Origin: Candidatus Fermentibacterota bacterium
Lineage (GTDB): Bacteria; Fermentibacterota; Fermentibacteria; Fermentibacterales; JCC-6
DNA length: 44,054 nt
Reading direction: 5' to 3'
Assembly: GCA_030592645.1 (NCBI GenBank)
Contig: JAUVIR010000028.1
Coordinates: forward strand, 1 to 44,054
Shown here: piece by piece, positions 8,431 through 18,329 of the stretch
Layout: every line of letters starts with the position of its first letter
Numbering within the stretch: the first letter of the stretch is position 1
Notes under the pieces: generated by a model
What the model was told of the DNA's origin: nothing
Databases searched by the model: none
Seen by the model: the letters and a program-made list of their open reading frames with translations, nothing else
Translations under genes and position numbers: made by a program

Positions 8431-10071
8431 ATGAAACGGTTTGCATACTTACTTTCTGTATTAATCATATTCCTGACTGCTGGAAATGCCATTTCAGATG
8501 ACCCGACCGAAGAGTGGGTTGCACGGTACAATGGCTCTATAAATGGTACTGATAAAGCAGTCTCCATGGTTCTGGATGATGCCGGGAATGTCTACGTGAC
8601 TGGCTACAGTGATGGCATCGGTTCTTTCAATGTTGACTACATCACCATCAAGTACAACAACGAGGGTTTGGAACAATGGGTTGCCAGGTACGATGGCCCC
8701 GGGATTGTGGAGAAAGATGATAGAGCGTCCTCCATCGCTCTTGATGAAGACGGGAATGTTTATGTGACTGGTGGAAGCACTGGCATAGATACCTTTTATG
8801 ATTACACAACCATCAAGTACAACAACGATGGTGTGGAAGAATGGGTTGCCCATTACGATGGTCCTGGGAATCACATGGATATAGCAACCTCTATCTCTTT
8901 GGATGAATCCGGGAATGTTTATGTGACTGGTTACAGTTTTGCCAGCGTCGCTATCGATAGAGACTATGCCACCATCAAGTACGATAACGATGGTGTGGAA
9001 CAATGGGTCGCCCGTTACAACGGTCCTGCGAATGAACGTGACCAGGCATACTCAATAACTTTGGATACAGCTGGAAATATTTACGTTACTGGTAGAAGCA
9101 AAGGCATTGGTACCTCGTATGACTACGCCACTATCAAGTACAACAATGATGGTGTGGAACAGTGGGCTGCCCGATACGATGGTCCTGCTAATTACGACGA
9201 CTCTGCAGAATCCATCGCTTTGGATGATGCCGGAAATGTCTATGTAACTGGTTACAGTAATGGCATTACAAGTTGCGACTACGCCACCATCAAGTACAAC
9301 AGTTATGGAGTGGAGCAATGGGTTGCTCGTTACGATTGCCCAGCGAGTGAGCGTGACCAGGCAAGCTCCATCGCTTTGGATGCAGCCGGGAATGTTTATG
9401 TGACTGGCTTCGATAATGGAATCACTTCCAATTCAAATTACGCTACCATCAAGTACAACAATGATGGTGTAGAACAATGGATTGCTAATTACAATGGGAC
9501 GGGGAATGATTCTGATGTGCCATCATCTATCGCTTTGGATATTGCCGGGAATGTCTATGTGACTGGCAAAAGTAATATCTCCGGTAATGGGAATGACTAC
9601 GCCACAATCAAGTACAACAATGATGGTGTGGAACAATGGGTTGCCAGTTACAACGGTCCCGGGAATAACTCTGACGCTCCATCATCCATCGCTCTAGGTT
9701 CAGATGGGAATGTCTATATAACCGGATTCAGCACAGGTTCTGGCACTTCTGAAGACTTCGCCACCATCAAGTACTCCCAGGACACCGGTATCGGGGAAAC
9801 AGCAGAAACTCCGGAATTCAGCCTTCGAGTGTATCCATGTCCGGTAAGTACTACTGCGTCAATTGCAGTGACATTACCAGAACCTTCGATATGTTCCGTC
9901 TTTGTATACAGTCTAGATGGAAGACTTATGGAAACACTGCACAAGGGTACATTACCACAGGGGGAGCACTTCTTTGTGTGGCAGACTTCTCAGATTCCTG
10001 TGGGGGTGTATCTCCTTCGGGTCAGTGCAGGCTCCATGGATAGCGTATCTAGGCTTGCTGTGATTCGATAG
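8431..10071 (+). CDS. Secreted SBBP-repeat beta-propeller protein with T9SS-type sorting domain
   Basis: 546 residues from ATG 8431 (GGAG 6 bases upstream, then signal peptide MKRFAYLLSVLIIFLTAGNA). Eight repeats of about 52 residues follow, each with the pattern WVARYDGP...SIALDDAGNVYVTG...DYATIKYNNDGVEQ, matching the SBBP (seven-bladed propeller) family PF06739. The C-terminal 90 residues (FSLRVYPCPVS..., VYSLDGRLMETL, GVYLLRVSAG) form a type A sorting domain as used by T9SS cargo. Repeat DNA is very similar from copy to copy, which suggests recent internal duplication or gene conversion. The gene lies between two copies of R1 beside tRNA-Asn, so it could be acquired cargo. Ligand unknown. 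Confidence 0.88.
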   Translation: MKRFAYLLSVLIIFLTAGNAISDDPTEEWVARYNGSINGTDKAVSMVLDDAGNVYVTGYSDGIGSFNVDYITIKYNNEGLEQWVARYDGPGIVEKDDRASSIALDEDGNVYVTGGSTGIDTFYDYTTIKYNNDGVEEWVAHYDGPGNHMDIATSISLDESGNVYVTGYSFASVAIDRDYATIKYDNDGVEQWVARYNGPANERDQAYSITLDTAGNIYVTGRSKGIGTSYDYATIKYNNDGVEQWAARYDGPANYDDSAESIALDDAGNVYVTGYSNGITSCDYATIKYNSYGVEQWVARYDCPASERDQASSIALDAAGNVYVTGFDNGITSNSNYATIKYNNDGVEQWIANYNGTGNDSDVPSSIALDIAGNVYVTGKSNISGNGNDYATIKYNNDGVEQWVASYNGPGNNSDAPSSIALGSDGNVYITGFSTGSGTSEDFATIKYSQDTGIGETAETPEFSLRVYPCPVSTTASIAVTLPEPSICSVFVYSLDGRLMETLHKGTLPQGEHFFVWQTSQIPVGVYLLRVSAGSMDSVSRLAVIR

Positions 10072-11314: not shown

Positions 11315-12099
11315 GGTGCTGTCTCTAATTTTGCATTTTCTAGAATCTTCCACCGGCTATTCCGTTTACAACCTCCAGAGTTGATTGCAGGCACCAAAGC
11401 AACAAAATCTCGAATACGCGCTCCTACCTCTTCCGCAAGTGGATCAGTAAGATCAGCCTTCGCACCTACATAATCAAGCAAGAAACCAAGTCGTTGAGCC
11501 CATGCTTTGGGCTGATCTGTACTGATCTGTGCGATCTTACGACCATCAATTCGTTCAAGAAGCTCCAATAAGACTATTATAATGTTGTCATAACCTCCAC
11601 ACCTGTTTGGATAACCAACGAGATCAAACGCAGTAGCCTCTGGAGAGGATACAGTTAGAATACCTCTAGGAGTATTCCTCTTTACAGTATGAGACATCCG
11701 CATACTGCTTTTCATTATGAATGAAACCTTAACCACACCGCATTGCAGAGGTTTAATAGTTCTTGGTACAAGCACCTGTAGTTCCTGGGGACGCTGATGA
11801 GCGGCACCATAGTAACTCGCTGCTGAAAGTAATCCCACATAATATTCAAGTTTACGATATGCCATGAGTTCAGGGATGAACTGATCCGCAGGAAGACACT
11901 TGAGTCTATGATACTGTGGAGGTACTAATACGTAGAAGCTCCTAAAGGGCATCGCAATGCGACCCTTTTTCATTAATCGTCTTAAGGAAGCTCTCACAGC
12001 AGTCTGGTTTGATCCACTACAACGAACAGCGTCCATCAATGTGAAGCAATACTTACCATTCGATTCAAGCTCATAAATATATTCAGTCATAAGTTTCAT
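11311..12099 (-). CDS. AbiEi-type antitoxin / repressor
   Basis: 262 residues, start ATG 12099 with GAGGA 6-10 bases upstream. The N-terminal winged helix (about residues 1-80: TLMDAVRCSGSNQTAVRASLRRLMKKGRIAMPFRS split over two helices and a wing) and the C-terminal antitoxin domain (ELMAYRKLEYYVGLLSAASYYGAAHQ, VSSPEATAFDLVGYPNRCGG) match the AbiEi family (COG5340). AbiEi proteins neutralise AbiEii and repress their own promoter through inverted repeats. A matching inverted repeat lies in the promoter at 12131-12147. Confidence 0.92.
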   Translation of the reverse strand: MKLMTEYIYELESNGKYCFTLMDAVRCSGSNQTAVRASLRRLMKKGRIAMPFRSFYVLVPPQYHRLKCLPADQFIPELMAYRKLEYYVGLLSAASYYGAAHQRPQELQVLVPRTIKPLQCGVVKVSFIMKSSMRMSHTVKRNTPRGILTVSSPEATAFDLVGYPNRCGGYDNIIIVLLELLERIDGRKIAQISTDQPKAWAQRLGFLLDYVGAKADLTDPLAEEVGARIRDFVALVPAINSGGCKRNSRWKILENAKLETAP

Positions 12100-12127
12100 A
12101 TTACTTCCTCTCCGGAATCACCCTCCT

Positions 12128-12164
12128 AAAGTAACACTCAATGTTACATTCGGCAAGTGATCAC
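12128..12164 (-). promoter_or_regulatory. abiE promoter with overlapping operator
   Basis: GTAACA-CTCAA-TGTTAC (12131-12147) is a perfect 6-bp inverted repeat. It overlaps a possible minus-strand promoter: TTGCCG (12156-12151), 17 bases, TACTTT (12133-12128). A second palindrome, GTGATCAC, lies at 12157-12164 just upstream of the -35. This is the layout expected for AbiEi autorepression. The rest of the gap up to 12284 shows only a short degenerate plus-strand coding remnant. Confidence 0.6.
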
Positions 12165-12284
12165 GGAAATAGTGGGATTGAGAAGATATACAGGTAAGAA
12201 GATACTTATGATACTGATGCTGCTGATGATGATGAGAAAGAGGAATACTCATTCGAGCTCATGAACAAACGGCTCAAGGGTTGG

Positions 12285-12312
12285 CCACCAAAGGTTCGAG
12301 TAGATCGGGAAT
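12285..12312 (+). repeat. Dispersed repeat R2, copy 2
   Basis: Identical over 28 bases to 10402-10429. On the plus strand the upstream 80 bases read as an acidic, charged peptide tail (DDDEKEEYSFELMNKRLKG) running into PPKVRVDRE, as if this were the 3' end of a lost gene. The match fades at about 12320, 6 bases before the end of the convergent fic gene. Confidence 0.8.
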
Positions 12313-12325
12313 CAAGGCCCCAACT

Positions 12326-13369
12326 TTATGGAATCACTTCCCAGCGAGCACCACGTCCTCGTCCTTCTAGGTTAATCTTACCCTGATTTTTCAGTTCTGA
12401 AAGAATTTTCTTGATTAGCTGCAGGCTTACCGAGGGAAGCTGTGCAGCGAGGTCAGCCAGTGTAAACCGTTCAAGCTGGTTAAGAATAGTCTGCCTGACG
12501 ATATCGCTCTTTGCAGTGCGCGACGCAGTGGACTCAACAAGAAGTTCAAGTTCCCCATACCCTCTTTGTAGCACACCCAGAAAATAGTTCCACCATGGCA
12601 TGATCTCATTTGTCCCGTCATGCCATCCTCTTGAACATTTCTCCAGAATTCGGTAATAGTCTTCCTTGCTTTCCTCAACAATACGCTCAAGACTGACGAA
12701 ACGCCCCACATCAAAACCATTCTCCAACAGCAGGAGTGTTGTCATCAATCGGGAAACACGCCAGTTGCCGTCACGGAACGGGTGAATGCAAAGAATATCC
12801 AGGATGAAAGTTGCGATAACCAGAAGAATGGGTACATGTTCCTCTTTGCGGGCATCCCTGTAGTTTCGGCAGAGAGTCTCCACCATCTCGGGAGTTTCCT
12901 TAGCTGGTGTTGGAATAAACCTCACCCTTCTCTCACCATTGGGCAGCAGCTCAACAATTTCGTTGTTCATTTTCTTCCATTTACCAGCATCACTGGATAC
13001 TCCCCCTTGAGCAAGGTAGTGTAGTTTCATAATCACATCCGGTGAAACAATAATCCGATTCTTTCGAGAGAAAAACCAGTCCAGAGCATTCCTGTAACCT
13101 GATAGTTCTTCCTCAGAGCGATTCTGAGGCTTTGCCTTACCCAAAACTACCGGGCGTAGTCTTTCAGCTTTAATGGTCACACCCTCGATACGGTTGGAGG
13201 ATTCGACACTCTGTATGATTGCCAGTTCCCTCAGAACTTCAAGAACCTCCGGTTTCTTTCTGATCCAAAGTTCCTGCTTTCCCAAGGCTTCCATGCACGA
13301 ACCAAGCAACCACACGGTACTTATGGGGATGGAAACCCTCGATATTTTTTTCGATTCAAGAGAAAGCAC
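12326..13369 (-). CDS. Class II Fic-domain protein with C-terminal winged helix
   Basis: 347 residues from GTG 13369. This start is preferred over ATG 13387 because a perfect AGGAGGT (13382-13376) lies 6 bases before it, inside what the longer model would call coding sequence. The inhibitory helix motif S58-N-R-I-E62-G63 is N-terminal to the Fic core, defining a class II Fic. The active-site loop at residues 196-207 is HPFRDGNWRVSR: catalytic His and the metal-binding Asp are present, but the usual Gly before the Arg is Trp (TGG). The C-terminal 70 residues form a winged helix (LADLAAQLPSVSLQLIKKIL). Such proteins AMPylate targets and are self-inhibited. It stands alone, with no separate antitoxin. 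Confidence 0.9.
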   Translation of the reverse strand: MLSLESKKISRVSIPISTVWLLGSCMEALGKQELWIRKKPEVLEVLRELAIIQSVESSNRIEGVTIKAERLRPVVLGKAKPQNRSEEELSGYRNALDWFFSRKNRIIVSPDVIMKLHYLAQGGVSSDAGKWKKMNNEIVELLPNGERRVRFIPTPAKETPEMVETLCRNYRDARKEEHVPILLVIATFILDILCIHPFRDGNWRVSRLMTTLLLLENGFDVGRFVSLERIVEESKEDYYRILEKCSRGWHDGTNEIMPWWNYFLGVLQRGYGELELLVESTASRTAKSDIVRQTILNQLERFTLADLAAQLPSVSLQLIKKILSELKNQGKINLEGRGRGARWEVIP

Positions 13370-13375
13370 TTCTTC

Positions 13376-13382
13376 ACCTCCT
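13376..13382 (-). promoter_or_regulatory. Ribosome site deciding the fic start
   Basis: AGGAGGT on the minus strand, complete match to the 16S 3' end, 6 bases before GTG 13369. The ATG at 13387 has no such site. The 190-base gap beyond it (13388-13573) shows no gene. Confidence 0.75.
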
Positions 13383-13573
13383 ATCATAGTAGCTTAATAA
13401 TAGCCTATTATAAGGCAGGTAGCCAATTCACTTCTCAAATCCATCTTCTTTTGATAAGGAAGATCGTGAATTGATGCGCTGACCGTTTGGCTCTAAACCA
13501 TTAACAGGGACAGGGTATCGGCTCGAATCCCACCGATGTGTACTTTAAGAACGGACCAGTTTCAGGTAGCAGA

Positions 13574-14161
13574 TCAAGTTCTTACGAATTTCCGTAATGG
13601 TTCATAATCGTATCTATCCGCAGATTGTAGAGCTTCTATATATCTCTTACGCGTATCACCAGACTTCACTAGATTTCCACTGCCCCATGTGAATTTTGGA
13701 CATTTCATGACATTCTCAAGTAGTGCATCGGTCATCAGCCGTGCATGGCGACCATTTCCGTTTGGGAAAGGATGAATAGATACAAGTCGATAGTGAAATT
13801 GAATGGCCAGTTCATCAGGGGATTCTTCCTGAAGTTCTATCCTTAAACATGCATCATCGCAAAGATTTTTCAGACTCGTGGAGATCAGATACCATGATCC
13901 ACCGATATTTTTATCGCTGTCCCGAAACTTTCCTGCCCACCTCCACACATGCCTGAACATCTTTAAGTGGAGTTTCTTGATGAATAACCCATTCAGGATG
14001 TTAGTTGGTTTTATTTTGTCCAACCATGCAAGTGCTTCGATGATATTATCCTGTTCCCAGCGATCCAGTTCCGCATGAGTCGTAATATGCGTAAGCAGCA
14101 GTCCCTCTAATTCGTCTGGATCAAGGGGGGTGGCTCCTTCAGGATAAGCGAACTCGATCAT
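13574..14161 (-). CDS. Mobile mystery protein B (Fic-domain)
   Basis: 195 residues. Fic motif HPFPNGNGRHAR at residues 130-141 and the upstream WRWAGKFRDSDKNIGG segment match mobile mystery protein B (TIGR02613). The position usually Asp/Glu is Asn, which is typical of this subgroup and may change metal or nucleotide use. It overlaps mobile mystery protein A by 4 bases (ATGA, 14158-14161), the standard order A then B. The pair is known from mobile and integrated elements and is thought to behave as a toxin-antitoxin-like module; the target is not known. It lacks the N-terminal inhibitory motif of the 12.3-13.4 kb Fic protein. Confidence 0.93.
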   Translation of the reverse strand: MIEFAYPEGATPLDPDELEGLLLTHITTHAELDRWEQDNIIEALAWLDKIKPTNILNGLFIKKLHLKMFRHVWRWAGKFRDSDKNIGGSWYLISTSLKNLCDDACLRIELQEESPDELAIQFHYRLVSIHPFPNGNGRHARLMTDALLENVMKCPKFTWGSGNLVKSGDTRKRYIEALQSADRYDYEPLRKFVRT

Positions 14162-14619
14162 GTAACATCCCAGAAATAGGAAGGAAGCGTATCAACTAGC
14201 TCTTCAACCAACTGAGATAACACCTTCTCGTTCTCCTTATCAGTCAACACTTGATTTTCCAGTAACATTGTATGTGAGGCCAGAGAGATACGCTTCGCTG
14301 CAAGCACTTGGGCCTGTTTATGGATTGTGTCTTCCAGGCTAGAACGAGGCACAAATCCATAAACGAACTCGCAATCAAGACACGCTGCGATGCGTTGCAT
14401 TGTCTTGATTGTGACCGATCCTGTCAATTCATCTTTTTCTATGCGCGCCACAGCTTGCTGGGCGATACCAAGCCTGCTCGCCAGTTGCCTGCCAGTCATC
14501 CCGAGCCCATCGCGAATAGCTCGAATCCATCCTTTCGGAGGGGTATTCACTCTACGCAGAGGCCTGAGATGCTGTAAAGTGGCTTCAAGTTGCTCTCGAA
14601 TGAGTCTCTTCCTTTTCAT
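14158..14619 (-). CDS. Mobile mystery protein A (HTH regulator)
   Basis: 153 residues from ATG 14619, chosen over ATG 14625 because GAGGGAG then sits 7 bases upstream rather than touching the codon. It has an XRE-type HTH (about residues 37-90: GMTGRQLASRLGIAQQAVAR, IKTMQRIAACLDCEFVYGFVP) matching mobile mystery protein A (TIGR02612), and a helical C-terminus. It is the likely DNA-binding and antitoxin partner of the downstream Fic protein. Three regularly spaced inverted repeats begin 50 bases upstream and are the probable binding sites. Confidence 0.93.
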   Translation of the reverse strand: MKRKRLIREQLEATLQHLRPLRRVNTPPKGWIRAIRDGLGMTGRQLASRLGIAQQAVARIEKDELTGSVTIKTMQRIAACLDCEFVYGFVPRSSLEDTIHKQAQVLAAKRISLASHTMLLENQVLTDKENEKVLSQLVEELVDTLPSYFWDVT

Positions 14620-14668
14620 AATCATTCTCCCTCAGCTACAATATGCATGGCTCAGTGATAGAGCCAAT

Positions 14669-14750
14669 ACAACATATACATTGTTCATATCTCAGAGTAT
14701 CACAATACAAATATTGTACATCTTAGTCATTTGCACAACCTATATATTGT
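14669..14750 (-). promoter_or_regulatory. Three phased operators ACAA-N8-TTGT upstream of mobile mystery A
   Basis: 16-base inverted repeats ACAA-N8-TTGT at 14669-14684, 14702-14717 and 14735-14750. All three have the same 8-base spacer and start exactly 33 bases apart, close to three helical turns. The inner bases are AT-rich in each. The middle copy extends to ACAATA/TATTGT. They are best explained as cooperative binding sites of the XRE-type protein A, controlling the A-B operon. Confidence 0.75.
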
Positions 14751-14840
14751 ATATATCAGTCTATCTTTTCCATCGAACCTAATTCACCCGGACAGTTTCT
14801 TTCGGAGCTGCCTTTCTGTGACCAGTTGCCTGCTCCAGTT

Positions 14841-14905
14841 CCATTGGGGCCGCCATTGGGGCCGGGCGTCACTTCTGGTCACTTACCGGGTCTGCACCAT
14901 ATCGG
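14841..14905 (+). repeat. Dispersed repeat R1, copy C
   Basis: Two head units (CCATTGGGGCCG at 14841 and 14853) followed by the core identical to copy A over 21 bases (14867-14887) and a diverged tail. It closes the accessory region on the right; the decayed propeller gene begins 9 bases later. Confidence 0.85.
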
Positions 14906-14913
14906 TGGCACTT

Positions 14914-15407
14914 CTATCTCAATAGACACAGACCTGTGATTTCGAAGATCCCACTGGATTGGATCCTGCATAAGTACAGACCTGCGCAGACAGGTTCTTC
15001 ATTCTGATTCTTTCCATCCCACTGGATTGAATGTTCTCCAGCAGAATACTCTTCGCTCAACATCACGCATGCAGTTCTACCTGAAATATCGAATATTTCC
15101 ACAGTAATTAATCCAGGTTCACTTAATGAGAAAAGAATGGAAGCAGATGAGATGAATGGATTCGGTACTATTTCCAGATCAAGTCACCGGTAACTGCATC
15201 AAGTGCATAGAGCGAATCAGTTCCCGAATTCGAGGGATAGTATACAATTCCCTCTACTATCACAGGTGTAGCATGCTCTATCCAATCCCCTGTAACAGGA
15301 GCAGTCCAAAGCACTGTGTTGTCAAAAGGAGCAGGGGATTCTGAGAACCCGGTTCTGCAATCATTCCTCCATAAAGAGTTATAAGAATGATAAAGTGGAT
15401 TCTCCAT
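14914..15407 (-). pseudogene. Decayed secreted PQQ-like protein with T9SS sorting domain
   Basis: Two fragments in different frames. 15407-15168 encodes an N-terminal propeller start (SLWRNDCRTGFSESPAP, then ALDAVTGDLIWK, stop). In the next frame, from about 15185 to 14914, a sorting domain follows (LEIVPNPFISSASILFSLSE, VEIFDISGRTACVM, AGLYLCRIQSSG). The signal peptide is missing: the frame is stopped four codons before the ATG at 15407. An intact homologue would have several propeller blades between the parts, so an internal deletion plus frameshift is likely. Its left end is next to repeat R1 copy C. Confidence 0.75.
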
Positions 15408-15526
15408 CTACTTGTATTTCATTGCCATATAACTATACAATTTCACTTGAAGATGAGTCAAGGATAGCAATCAGACAATGGATGAATCAACATGTTTTCT
15501 GGCCTGTTCAGCCTGAGGTAAGAAGG

Positions 15527-15552
15527 ACGGACCGGGTACTTGACCCGGCCCG
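15527..15552 (-). terminator. Possible terminator of the 15.6-16.3 kb gene
   Basis: CCGGGT-ACTTG-ACCCGG (15532-15548) with four further pairs outside one A/C mismatch. It lies 30 bases past the stop of the minus-strand gene and is followed on that strand by CCTTCTT, a weak pyrimidine tail. Nothing else is seen in 15408-15581. Confidence 0.5.
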
Positions 15553-15581
15553 TACTGTCTTTATCGCGGTGAACAGCGATT

Positions 15582-16259
15582 CTACTCGAAGAGCGACTTC
15601 ACATTCGCCCATGTATGGCGTTCGATGGGGACTTCTGTGTCGTAATAAGTCCGGAAAGCATAATCGTAACCCGGGAAGGGGCTGTAGCCGGGATTGGCAA
15701 ACACATTACCGTCTGGATACGGGTTGTTTAAGTCACCGGCGATCCCCAAAGTGCTGTTTCCCGTGAATACCAGGTAGTATGTAGTCGCAGGAGTAATTGT
15801 TTCAGCTGTCCAGAAGACATCGACCCACTGACCTGCAGTGCCCGCGGCGCTAGCCTCAGCGAGCATGGTACCGCCTGCGTTGGGCAGAGCATCCCAGAGC
15901 TGTATCGTGACATTGTCGGAGGTTCCAACTCCCGTCTGCAGCAGGATACCCGCACCCGCGATATTGTCATTCGTCTGCATGAACGACTGCGCAAGATCTG
16001 TCTGGTTGAACGCAGCCATGTAAACTGGCCCGCTTGGCTGATTCTGGTCGATTTCGATGCTGAGCGATATCTGCTGGGCTGTCCCGGTCTGTTCAAACTC
16101 AGGTGTGAGGACCGACCAGCCGGGCCAGTTCTCCTCGATGATGGTGGCAGTTGCCGGCAAGGTGAGAACACCTGTATGCGCATGGGCCACCGGTGTCACG
16201 AATACCGCAGCAGCAAGGAGCGATGCGGCAACAAGATGAAGAACAGTCTTTGAATTCAT
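15582..16259 (-). CDS. Exported protein of unknown function, single beta-sandwich
   Basis: 225 residues. Signal peptide (MNSKTVLHLVAASLLAAAVF ending AHA), then a Thr/Asn-rich beta-rich domain (ATTYYLVFTGNSTLGIAGD, GYDYAFRTYYD) resembling the small all-beta ligand-binding or anchor domains found in exported proteins of many environmental bacteria. There is no T9SS sorting domain. Instead it ends in RHTWANVKSLFE, a short Trp-x-x-(I/V/L)-Lys-x-Leu-(F/Y) tail. ATG 16259 has a GGGGGG ribosome site 7 bases upstream. Divergently transcribed from the FG-GAP protein gene, with a palindrome between. Function not recognised. Confidence 0.75.
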   Translation of the reverse strand: MNSKTVLHLVAASLLAAAVFVTPVAHAHTGVLTLPATATIIEENWPGWSVLTPEFEQTGTAQQISLSIEIDQNQPSGPVYMAAFNQTDLAQSFMQTNDNIAGAGILLQTGVGTSDNVTIQLWDALPNAGGTMLAEASAAGTAGQWVDVFWTAETITPATTYYLVFTGNSTLGIAGDLNNPYPDGNVFANPGYSPFPGYDYAFRTYYDTEVPIERHTWANVKSLFE

Positions 16260-16326
16260 ATTTATACCCCCCTTTGTGATTAGAAACCTTCATAAATACA
16301 TCAATAAGAACAAGTTCTAAAATAAT

Positions 16327-16342
16327 ATTCGGTTTACCGAAT
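16327..16342. promoter_or_regulatory. Palindromic operator candidate
   Basis: ATTCGGT-TT-ACCGAAT, a perfect 7-bp inverted repeat in the 231-base gap between divergent secreted-protein genes. It is 68 bases upstream of the minus-strand start and 149 bases upstream of the plus-strand start. Regulator unknown. Confidence 0.55.
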
Positions 16343-16426
16343 CAACTAATAATACTAATGTACAGGAATAGGCTTTGAAGTGTCAAGAGAGGCTTACAAG
16401 GAAAGGCATAGAGCAGCATACTGTTA

Positions 16427-16455
16427 TTGACATGCGTATCTAATGTACATATTGA
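16427..16455 (+). promoter_or_regulatory. Possible promoter of FG-GAP protein gene
   Basis: TTGACA (16427-16432), 17 bases, TATTGA (16450-16455), 36 bases before the ATG at 16491. The -35 is perfect, the -10 matches only three of six positions. Confidence 0.4.
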
Positions 16456-16490
16456 AGTTATCAGAGTAATTAACTTAGAAGGATTCGAAT

Positions 16491-18329
16491 ATGCGCTCAG
16501 GAATTATACTTTTTACTGTTTTACTGATAGTACTTAGTGCATATGAAGCTTACGGTAATTCCGCTACACAGAGTAACTGGTCTGGTGGACCCGGTGTCCC
16601 CGGACCGGTCACCTCATGGGAATGCGATTTCCATCTCGATACTTTAGTTGTATGGAGCGACAGTGCCGGTTCTCTAACTCTTCTCCCATCACTTGAGCAT
16701 ATCGTTGACGGGGAGTTTCATAGTACCCGTTCAGTTCACTCAGAGGACTTGGATGGTGACGGTGACTTAGACGTGCTCGGTGCTGCTTTTAACGATGATG
16801 ACATCGCCTGGTGGGAGAACATGGATGGATCAGGCACAATCTGGACAGAGCATAACATTGCCCCGAACTTCGATGGAGCCTACTCCGTTTATTCGCAGGA
16901 CATAGATGATGATGGTGACATGGACGTACTCGGTGCTGCAATGAACGGTGGCGCCATCACATGGTGGAAAAACGAAGATGGATTGGGGACCATCTGGACA
17001 GAACATACCGTTACCTGGAGTTTCTATGGCGCAGCATCCGTCTATGCTGAGGACATAGATGGCGATGGGGATATGGATATTCTCGGTGCCGCTGTACACA
17101 GTGACGAGTTCGCATGGTGGGAGAATGCCAACGGCCTGGGTACATCCTGGATCGAGCATAGTATTGAGAAGTACTTAGACAGTCCAAGATCCGTCTACTC
17201 AGAAGACATAAACGGCGACGGTTATCTGGATGTTCTCGGTGCTGATGCGATGGCTGATGATATCATATGGTGGGAGAATACTGACGGTTCGGGTACATCC
17301 TGGATAAAGCATACTGTTAATGGGGACTTCGATGGTGCATGGTCCGTTTACTCGGAGGACATAAATGGTGACGGCTATATGGATATCCTTGGTGCCGCTG
17401 CATACAGTGACGAAATTACATGGTGGGAGAACTCAGATACCGGTCAGGGAATCTACTGGACAGAACATACCGTTGATGGAGACTTCGATGGTGCCTATTC
17501 CGTTTACTCGAAGGATATAGATAGCGACGGCGATATGGATATCCTGGGTGCTGCCTATGAGGACGGTAAGATCCTCTGGTGGGAAAATTTGGACGGCTCG
17601 GGTACATCCTGGATAGAACATTCTGTTGATGGGGACTTCAATGGCGCATGGTCTGTCTACTCAGCGGACATAAACAATGATGGAAATCAGGATATTCTCG
17701 GTGCTTCAGCCGGAGACCATGACATTGCATGGTGGGATCTTACCGCATATTTACCTGAAGGTTCGCTCGAATCGAGTATTCTTGATATACAGGGCGTTAA
17801 TTATAGCTGGAATGATTTTGACTGGAATGCAACAACACCTGCAAACACATCTCTTTCATTCCAGGTGCGGGCATCCTGGAATTTTATATACATGGGAGTC
17901 TGGTCTGATACGCTCACTTCGCCATGCTCACTGGCAGGCATCCTTCAAGACGGTAGAAGGTACGTACAGTACAGAGTCATCCTCAACTCATCAGACCCTG
18001 ATACAACTCCAGTACTTAATGATGTAACAATTTCCTGGAATCCGGTCGGAGTTGGGGATGAACCGGATTTAACCGAATATGTCCTGTTCGGAACAGAGCC
18101 GAATCCTGCATCAGAATTTGTGAAGATTTGCTTCTCGGTTCCGGAAAACGCTCCTGTAGAACTTTCTATCTACGATCTTACCGGGCGTCTTGTAATTATG
18201 CCCTCTCATGTGGAGTATGCGCCGGGAGTGCACTATGTGCATTTTACTGAACTCAATCCGGGGATGTACTTCTGCCGAATGAGGGCAGGAAACTTCACCG
18301 CTGCACAGCGTTTTGTAGTGATTGAATAG
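16491..18329 (+). CDS. Secreted FG-GAP/VCBS-repeat protein with T9SS-type sorting domain
   Basis: 612 residues; AAGGA lies 7 bases before ATG 16491, then a signal peptide (MRSGIILFTVLLIVLSAYEAYG). Seven repeats of about 51 residues each carry a calcium-binding-like loop (DLDGDGDLD, DIDDDGDMD, DIDGDGDMD, DINGDGYLD, DINGDGYMD, DIDSDGDMD, DINNDGNQD), then LGA and a WWEN strand. This is the FG-GAP/VCBS pattern of an integrin-alpha-like propeller. A beta-sandwich region (about 425-515) follows, then a type A sorting domain (LFGTEPNPASEF, LSIYDLTGRLVIM, GMYFCRMRAGN). It is probably a calcium-stabilised surface or released binding protein. A strong terminator follows. Confidence 0.9.
   Translation: MRSGIILFTVLLIVLSAYEAYGNSATQSNWSGGPGVPGPVTSWECDFHLDTLVVWSDSAGSLTLLPSLEHIVDGEFHSTRSVHSEDLDGDGDLDVLGAAFNDDDIAWWENMDGSGTIWTEHNIAPNFDGAYSVYSQDIDDDGDMDVLGAAMNGGAITWWKNEDGLGTIWTEHTVTWSFYGAASVYAEDIDGDGDMDILGAAVHSDEFAWWENANGLGTSWIEHSIEKYLDSPRSVYSEDINGDGYLDVLGADAMADDIIWWENTDGSGTSWIKHTVNGDFDGAWSVYSEDINGDGYMDILGAAAYSDEITWWENSDTGQGIYWTEHTVDGDFDGAYSVYSKDIDSDGDMDILGAAYEDGKILWWENLDGSGTSWIEHSVDGDFNGAWSVYSADINNDGNQDILGASAGDHDIAWWDLTAYLPEGSLESSILDIQGVNYSWNDFDWNATTPANTSLSFQVRASWNFIYMGVWSDTLTSPCSLAGILQDGRRYVQYRVILNSSDPDTTPVLNDVTISWNPVGVGDEPDLTEYVLFGTEPNPASEFVKICFSVPENAPVELSIYDLTGRLVIMPSHVEYAPGVHYVHFTELNPGMYFCRMRAGNFTAAQRFVVIE

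Follow-up and report, generated by a model that had tools for sequence, protein, structure and literature searches.

Which protein reads the three palindromes that precede the mobile mystery A/B operon of a Candidatus Fermentibacterota bacterium, and what keeps them at one regular distance? The window (the whole stretch of DNA that was analysed, 44,054 bases) had been described in a first-pass annotation as carrying three ACAA-N8-TTGT sites at exact 33-bp intervals in 14669-14750, too regular to be due to chance, and cooperative or filament-like binding by protein A had been suggested. The pattern scan agrees with the description: ACAANNNNNNNNTTGT has exactly three matches in the window, the ACAA-N8-TTGT palindromes are all perfect and the period is 33 + 33 bp, the dyads being better drawn as 18-bp sites. 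Sequence comparison makes it very likely that the three palindromes are autoregulatory operators of mobile mystery protein A (mmA), 33 bp apart, through which the operon would be repressed and on which neighbouring proteins are probably in contact. The features of the locus are as follows.

14735..14750, no strand: operator site 1, gene-distal, exact match to ACAA-N8-TTGT; 18-bp dyad 14734-14751
14702..14717, no strand: operator site 2, middle, exact match to ACAA-N8-TTGT; 18-bp dyad 14701-14718
14669..14684, no strand: operator site 3, gene-proximal, exact match to ACAA-N8-TTGT; 18-bp dyad 14668-14685
14668..14751, minus strand: whole three-site array, spacing 33 + 33 bp, from the shuffle score and recurrence in relatives
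14158..14625, minus strand: mmA, 155 aa, HTH_3, proposed repressor, from TIGR02612, HTH_3 and the structural model
14422..14460, minus strand: mmA recognition helix, residues 56-68, from the model; residues 56, 57 and 60 covary with operator letters
14254..14271, minus strand: mmA residues 119-124, (S/T)xxxE(G/N) motif resembling that of the Fic inhibition helix, from alignment
13574..14161, minus strand: mobile mystery protein B (mmB), 195 aa, Fic domain, from TIGR02613 and Fic

The gap between site 3 and the mmA start codon (14625) is 43 bp, and several like palindromes are found just upstream of the regulator's own gene, as in autoregulated multi-operator operons of the toxin-antitoxin type. 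Within this gap, at 14649-14665, there is also a GGCTC-N7-GAGCC inverted repeat; in the relative L010, which has 93% identity, its symmetry is absent.

Chance, or AT-rich low-complexity repeats, could be thought to produce such an array, and the sites are indeed AT-rich. However, three ACAA-N8-TTGT sites were found in 0 of 100 dinucleotide shuffles of the window (mean 0.54, largest 2). The array has a three-site score of 97, whereas the highest score among 8 shuffles is 74. Within its own assembly (2.58 Mb, 73 contigs), an exact ACAA-N8-TTGT pair 33 bp apart is unique to the array, the scan for such pairs giving 2 matches against 0 in the reversed control. The pattern ACAAY-N6-RTTGT occurs at 15 places in this genome, 3 of which are the array itself, against 8 in the reversed control. 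Tandem Repeats Finder, run on the window, does not include the array among its 19 rows. The tandem repeats of the window are located at 1-253, 8562-9774 and 16744-17674, with units of 45, 159 and 153 bp, and the last of them sits within an FG-GAP protein of 612 aa that has a Por secretion tail.

The two proteins of the operon are clear members of their families. mmA matches TIGR02612 (E 1.6e-52, 177.4 bits, above the curated cut-off of 122.6) and contains an HTH_3 domain (E 1.4e-10); its AlphaFold2 model (pLDDT 90.9) ends in two long C-terminal helices, and the Foldseek search with this model gave no match at E 0.001 or better. mmB, which lies directly behind mmA with a 4-bp overlap with the mmA end, matches TIGR02613 (E 4e-74, 248.5 bits, above the curated cut-off of 124.4) and Fic (E 1.4e-13). 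Its Fic motif, HPFPNGNGRHAR in the window protein, departs from the canonical HPFx(D/E)GN(G/K)R as defined in the available text of PMC7479194, having N in the D/E place. The same N is found in 142 of the 143 motifs located among mmB relatives, and mmB may have a chemistry other than ordinary AMPylation. A second, larger Fic protein (353 aa, 12326-13387, minus strand) with a weak SoFic-like match is encoded 186 bp behind mmB.

The C-terminal part of mmA carries T119, E123 and N124, as expected of the (S/T)xxxE(G/N) partner in class I Fic toxin-antitoxin pairs (motif definition as given in the accessible part of PMC5651007). Residues M120, L122, E123 and Q125 are invariant across 94 aligned proteins, and the MxLExQ core is present in 164 of 171 mmA loci. 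Among these 164 proteins, [ST]xxxE is found in 135 and the full [ST]xxxE[GN] in 51, so that the fit of the family as a whole is loose. A natural A-B fusion frame of 348 aa (L040:1201-2244) is found in a metagenome-assembled record, in which an assembly slip is possible. The fusion was modelled with B rows only and its A part is poor (block means 38-78), so no inference on A-B docking was drawn from it.

mmA relatives are widespread: 540 were found in one genome collection (tblastn E 1e-3), and 262 of 72,556 plasmid records (E 1e-5), a Ti plasmid included, contain mmA, 154 of them covering at least 80% of the query. Neither the viral contigs searched with mmB nor the phage records searched with mmA gave a match. 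In the phylum of the window, mmA is above the cut-off in 13 of 42 genomes. A total of 176 loci were gathered, namely 13 from this phylum, 10 from plasmids, the best 80 of the 540 genome-contig relatives, 11 from viral contigs and 62 from sampled genomes. Sampling around G042 (source of L101, a record labelled Thiotrichaceae) gave mmA loci in 27 of 369 and 21 of 398 genomes (class and phylum, respectively); the figures were 1 of 246 around a Planctomycetota genome (the centre itself), 8 of 240 for Verrucomicrobia and 4 of 198 for Spirochaetes. L002, a weak match in the window's own genome that the mmA profile does not match, was left out of the count. Some operons were met twice (e.g. L010 and L025), such copies sharing one cluster. 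Start codons were assigned by a simple rule, those of L018 and L020 being set by hand to the annotated starts. Eleven of the 176 loci were dropped for lack of a start, of 165 bp of upstream DNA or of sufficient score, and the 165 kept form 106 clusters at 80% protein identity. The covariation, tree and site-number analyses were carried out with 85 arrays. Of these, 12 are labelled Planctomycetota, 9 Thermodesulfobacteriota, 2 each Nitrospirota, Verrucomicrobiota and Pseudomonadota, and 1 each Spirochaetota and Myxococcota, while 56, which include plasmid and viral-contig loci, have no phylum label; the Myxococcota array (L083) is weak, with 74 against 70 for the best shuffle.

Judged by eye and with pattern matching, within the phylum of the window, 6 of the 13 loci (L001, L010, L011, L012, L013 and L014) have three exact ACAA-N8-TTGT sites at 33 bp. 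Two others (L006 and L009) keep two exact sites and a degenerate middle one, L003, L004 and L005 have GTCAA-type half-sites, L007 has GTCTA-type ones, and L008 has too little upstream DNA. The search was extended to all clusters with scans that used either one period (20 to 46 bp) or two free spacings (22 to 44 bp each); the repeat-only and equal-period scans were superseded by the free-spacing one. In the equal-period scan the best period is 33 in 65 of the 106 clusters, 32 in 11 and any other value in at most 4, while on shuffles 33 is the best period in 5 of 106. With free spacings, 97 of 106 clusters score above all eight of their own dinucleotide shuffles, and out of 212 spacings 136 are of 33 bp and 36 of 32 bp, against 10.6 and 10.2 in the shuffles. 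In control DNA, spacings of 33 and 32 bp amount to 7 and 7 of 200 far upstream, and to 11 and 13 of 210 in coding DNA. The check proposed in the first-pass annotation, a search for arrays of the same period upstream of other mmA genes, is therefore strongly positive in several phyla. An origin by chance or by low-complexity repeats is consequently hardly credible: nine of the 106 clusters do not exceed their shuffles, but a peak at 32-33 bp is missing from dinucleotide shuffles, far-upstream and coding DNA alike.

The nine clusters are L048, L137, L141, L161, L162, L163, L165, L170 and L172, and twelve more exceed their shuffles only with a spacing outside 31-35. No three-site array above shuffles was found in the upstream DNA of L161, L162 and L163, sub-cut-off proteins in which an mmA-type HTH is followed by what looks, from a motif, like a nucleotidyltransferase domain. 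Loci collected later also support the conserved spacing: both spacings are 32 or 33 in 9 of the 12 that are above the cut-off, a count to which shuffles were not applied, the exceptions being L182, L185 and L188. L190 proved to be the same operon as L088, hence not new, and L183 closely resembles L189, which is from the same genome. Besides, a sub-cut-off group (L192-L195) shows AATATTGT-like palindromes at 31-35 bp, which could mean that the layout predates the TIGR02612 family. What is conserved is the width of the dyad and a spacing of 32-33 bp, not the letters, and this the first-pass annotation did not foresee; the linkers between sites are mostly without conservation. In a Shewanella plasmid (L021) mmA/mmB is annotated as adjoining a Qat anti-phage system, in a Megaera plasmid (L020) it is annotated near RelE/ParE-type and MazEF-type genes, and in the Ti plasmid of GV3101 (L017) an ATCAG-type array at 33 bp lies upstream of mmA/mmB.

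The constancy of the distance could have other causes than a contact between proteins. The sites may be mmA operators whose 33-bp spacing is set by promoter geometry, through RNA polymerase contacts, or by helical phasing; we regard this as unlikely, though it is the most serious of the alternatives. Half-sites are often -35-like, the mean match to TTGACA being best at positions 13, 46 and 79, in the right half of the respective site, and the best sigma-70-like pair starts in the right-half register in 17 of the 53 arrays with 33+33. Nevertheless, in the other 36 the best pair is found elsewhere, no register is common to most arrays, and where the last site ends relative to the start codon varies from 10 bp inside to 69 bp upstream, 33+33 being unchanged. 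Phasing alone would permit 22-23 or 43-44 bp, which also place sites on the same face, and neither distance is enriched in the free-spacing scan. In the window, no minus-strand sigma-70-like site upstream of mmA was detected in 14500-14900. Contact between neighbouring mmA complexes is thought probable because 32-33 bp is kept and the other whole-turn distances are not enriched, and cooperativity between adjacent dimers is plausible on the same sequence grounds.

The position of the array end bears on another alternative, in which the palindromes function as leader hairpins in RNA or belong to a mobile element, as its iterons or attachment sites. In 19 of the 53 arrays with 33+33 the last site is within 6 bp of the start codon or inside it, so that the ribosome-binding region is covered. 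Yet other arrays end up to 69 bp upstream, the half-site letters track the mmA HTH (see below) and the Rfam scan of 12000-17000 gave no family at its gathering score, which together leave such a reading very improbable.

If mmA formed an open-ended filament, as had been raised in the first-pass annotation, additional sites would be expected beyond the third. A fourth site was looked for 32-34 bp on either side of the array, with at least 8 of 10 outer matches, and was found in 8 of 85 arrays, including that of the Ti plasmid L017, in which it lies 32-34 bp further upstream. Other offsets seldom give matches of this grade, with 0 or 1 of 85 for each, and at 33 bp the mean match is near background, with 2.72 against 2.59 upstream and 2.92 against 2.67 downstream. 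The three sites themselves are about equal in quality (outer matches of 9.0, 8.65 and 8.76 of 10). Within the reach of a three-site scan, three sites are the rule and four the exception. An open-ended filament seems unlikely because 77 of the 85 arrays are without a fourth site, and this part of the earlier proposal was not upheld.

The identity of the protein that reads the sites can be approached through their letters, which vary widely between loci (ACAA, GTCAA, GTCTA, AATAA, ATCAG and others). Another DNA-binding protein of the host might be the reader, given that binding by mmA is deduced from sequence. This seems most improbable, since the letters vary with the recognition helix of mmA even within one genus, as seen when L003 and L007 are compared with the window, and the layout travels with the operon across phyla. 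Among 152 mmA columns in the 85 arrays, residues 57, 56 and 60 are the three that share most information with the half-site letters. Proteins with Q57 have C at half-site position 3 in 37 of 37 cases, T being found there with P57 in 16 of 17 and with S57 in 14 of 18. Position 2 is A in 34 of 35 proteins with Q56, GT occupies positions 1-2 with K56 (20 of 24) and R56 (10 of 13), and N55 goes with T at position 4 in 12 of 12. The residue-to-letter pattern of these arrays almost amounts to a code. Since the half-site letters track its recognition helix, mmA is taken as the reader of the sites; that the arrays recur with the operon points in the same direction, and the assignment to mmA made in the first-pass annotation may be retained.

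Common descent was taken into account in two ways. In the first, 42 non-overlapping closest pairs of sister proteins were picked without residues 43-70, and 137 columns were ranked. Residue 56 comes first of the 137 for position 2 (p 0.0001), and residue 57 comes first for position 4 (p 0.0006), where it, and not residue 55, is the lead column, as well as for positions 2-4 jointly (p 0.00014). When position 3 is taken by itself, the six best columns all lie outside the helix, and columns elsewhere also have low p values. In the second, a tree of the proteins of the 85 arrays was made without residues 43-70; 24 of its 82 inner branches were drawn open because of low support, and the test on independent pairs was limited to the supported branches. 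Residue 56 and position 1 change in the same sense in 8.6 pairs and in the opposite sense in 0.5 (11 pairs, median p 0.02), and for position 2 the values are 6.4 and 0.0 (11 pairs, median p 0.03). For residue 57 and position 3 (2.9 same and 0 opposite, 7 pairs) and for residue 55 and position 4 (3.0 and 0, 9 pairs) the pairs are too few for significance (median p 0.25 in both). The two phylogenetic controls support residue 56, and the other residues less so. On the best tree of the 85, no fewer than 39 changes of the core letters 2-4 are required. A letter rule, fixed before the later loci were viewed, was tried on 8 new loci with an array. For positions 2-4 it gave 11 of 16 called letters right, which is little better than naming the commonest letters. 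In the misses (L186, L187 and L191) residue 57 is N or A, neither of which is covered by the rule, and N or A at this residue is also found in three loci with correct calls. The later loci support a residue-to-base code weakly.

The helix to which this pattern leads is of the Cro/434 type, as indicated by HTH_3, by the helix 56-68 in the model and by the match of mmA profile residues 34-66 with residues 6-38 of the 434 repressor (1per; equal-length ranges, E 0.033). The HTH type is shared with both the repressor and Cro of phage 434, in which an ACAA half-site is read by two glutamines at those helix positions. The central spacer of the 434 operators is shorter than that of the mmA sites, and the 434 proteins are without a Fic partner, whereas mmA has one and bears two long C-terminal helices. 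As for the pair of proteins, mmA/mmB resembles the class I Fic pairs VbhA/VbhT and AntF/Fic-1 in joining a small partner to a Fic protein, with E123 of mmA in an (S/T)xxxE-like motif as in the small partners. The Fic half of the L040 fusion is like VbhT (3zcb, TM 0.71 by target) and Fic-1 (8wt0, TM 0.69), the lowest E-values being those of FICD-type chains. Unlike VbhA and AntF, mmA carries an HTH, and mmB has N where the usual Fic motif has D/E.

Regarding the arrangement of the operators, the closest parallels are found among toxin-antitoxin operons. HipB of hipBA is, like mmA, an HTH regulator of antitoxin type whose own two-gene operon is preceded by several palindromes of 18 bp (5-N8-5). 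However, in Escherichia coli K-12 there are four HipB sites, with spacings of 28, 39 and 28 bp as measured on the K-12 sequence, of the form TATCC-N8-GGATA, and the partner is annotated as a kinase, whereas the array of the window has three ACAA sites at 33/33 and a Fic partner; it is not of the HipBA type. In the available text of PMC10653801, HipBST of Legionella pneumophila is described as an HTH-led operon preceded by three 18-nt operators at even spacing, which are conserved in 28 Legionella species. It differs from the mmA array, according to the same text, in its 53-bp gaps, in two asymmetric sites and in a tripartite kinase system, and its conservation is described within Legionella, while the mmA layout extends across phyla. 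Palindromes at fixed distances are also found, in other families, in the toxin-antitoxin operons of YefM-YoeB, with two palindromes 12 bp centre to centre whose altered spacing disturbs cooperative binding (available part of PMC4803016), and of PaaR2, with four equally spaced sites (available part of PMC8630535). That HTH antitoxin genes may be preceded by an array of several palindromes is already known (hipBA, HipBST, PaaR2). In the literature searched there is no description of the control or operators of mobile mystery A/B, in agreement with the first-pass annotation, nor any antitoxin paper with a comparable three-operator, 33-bp array. With respect to that literature, what appears to be new is the mobile mystery operator, the spacing of 32-33 bp that persists across phyla as the letters change, and the putative residue-to-base code.

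On the preferred reading, in which the palindromes are mmA operators, one mmA dimer would bind each 18-bp palindrome through its Cro/434-type recognition helix, residue 56 reading base pairs 1-2 of the half-site and residue 57 pair 3, with residue 55 helping at pair 4. Three dimers, 33 bp (about 3.1 helical turns) apart, would then lie on nearly one face of the DNA and cover 84 bp, and, bound just upstream, they would repress the mmA/mmB operon. Neighbouring complexes would probably touch, either A to A or via the Fic protein B held on the C-terminal helix of mmA. Such a contact would make occupancy cooperative and sensitive to the A:B ratio; if B alters the contact, the operon would respond to this ratio, as known toxin-antitoxin operons do.

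The mobile mystery A/B pair is widespread, and with this array it gains a candidate operator that can be tested. For 434-type HTH proteins a candidate residue-to-base code is provided, and the spacing strongly limits the possible geometries of the repressor complex. The family also offers a natural series of re-coded operators at nearly constant spacing, in which protein-DNA specificity can be separated from protein-protein contact. A broader view, which we hold as possible but tentatively and with rather less than even confidence, is that mmA/mmB is governed by a molecular ruler that would hold three dimers, perhaps with B as a bridge, at 32-33 bp across phyla while the letters are rewritten repeatedly, giving insulated copies and a compact code. 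If so, mobile copies would be mutually insulated in their autoregulation under one fixed assembly geometry, and the operator of a new copy would be partly predictable from its protein.
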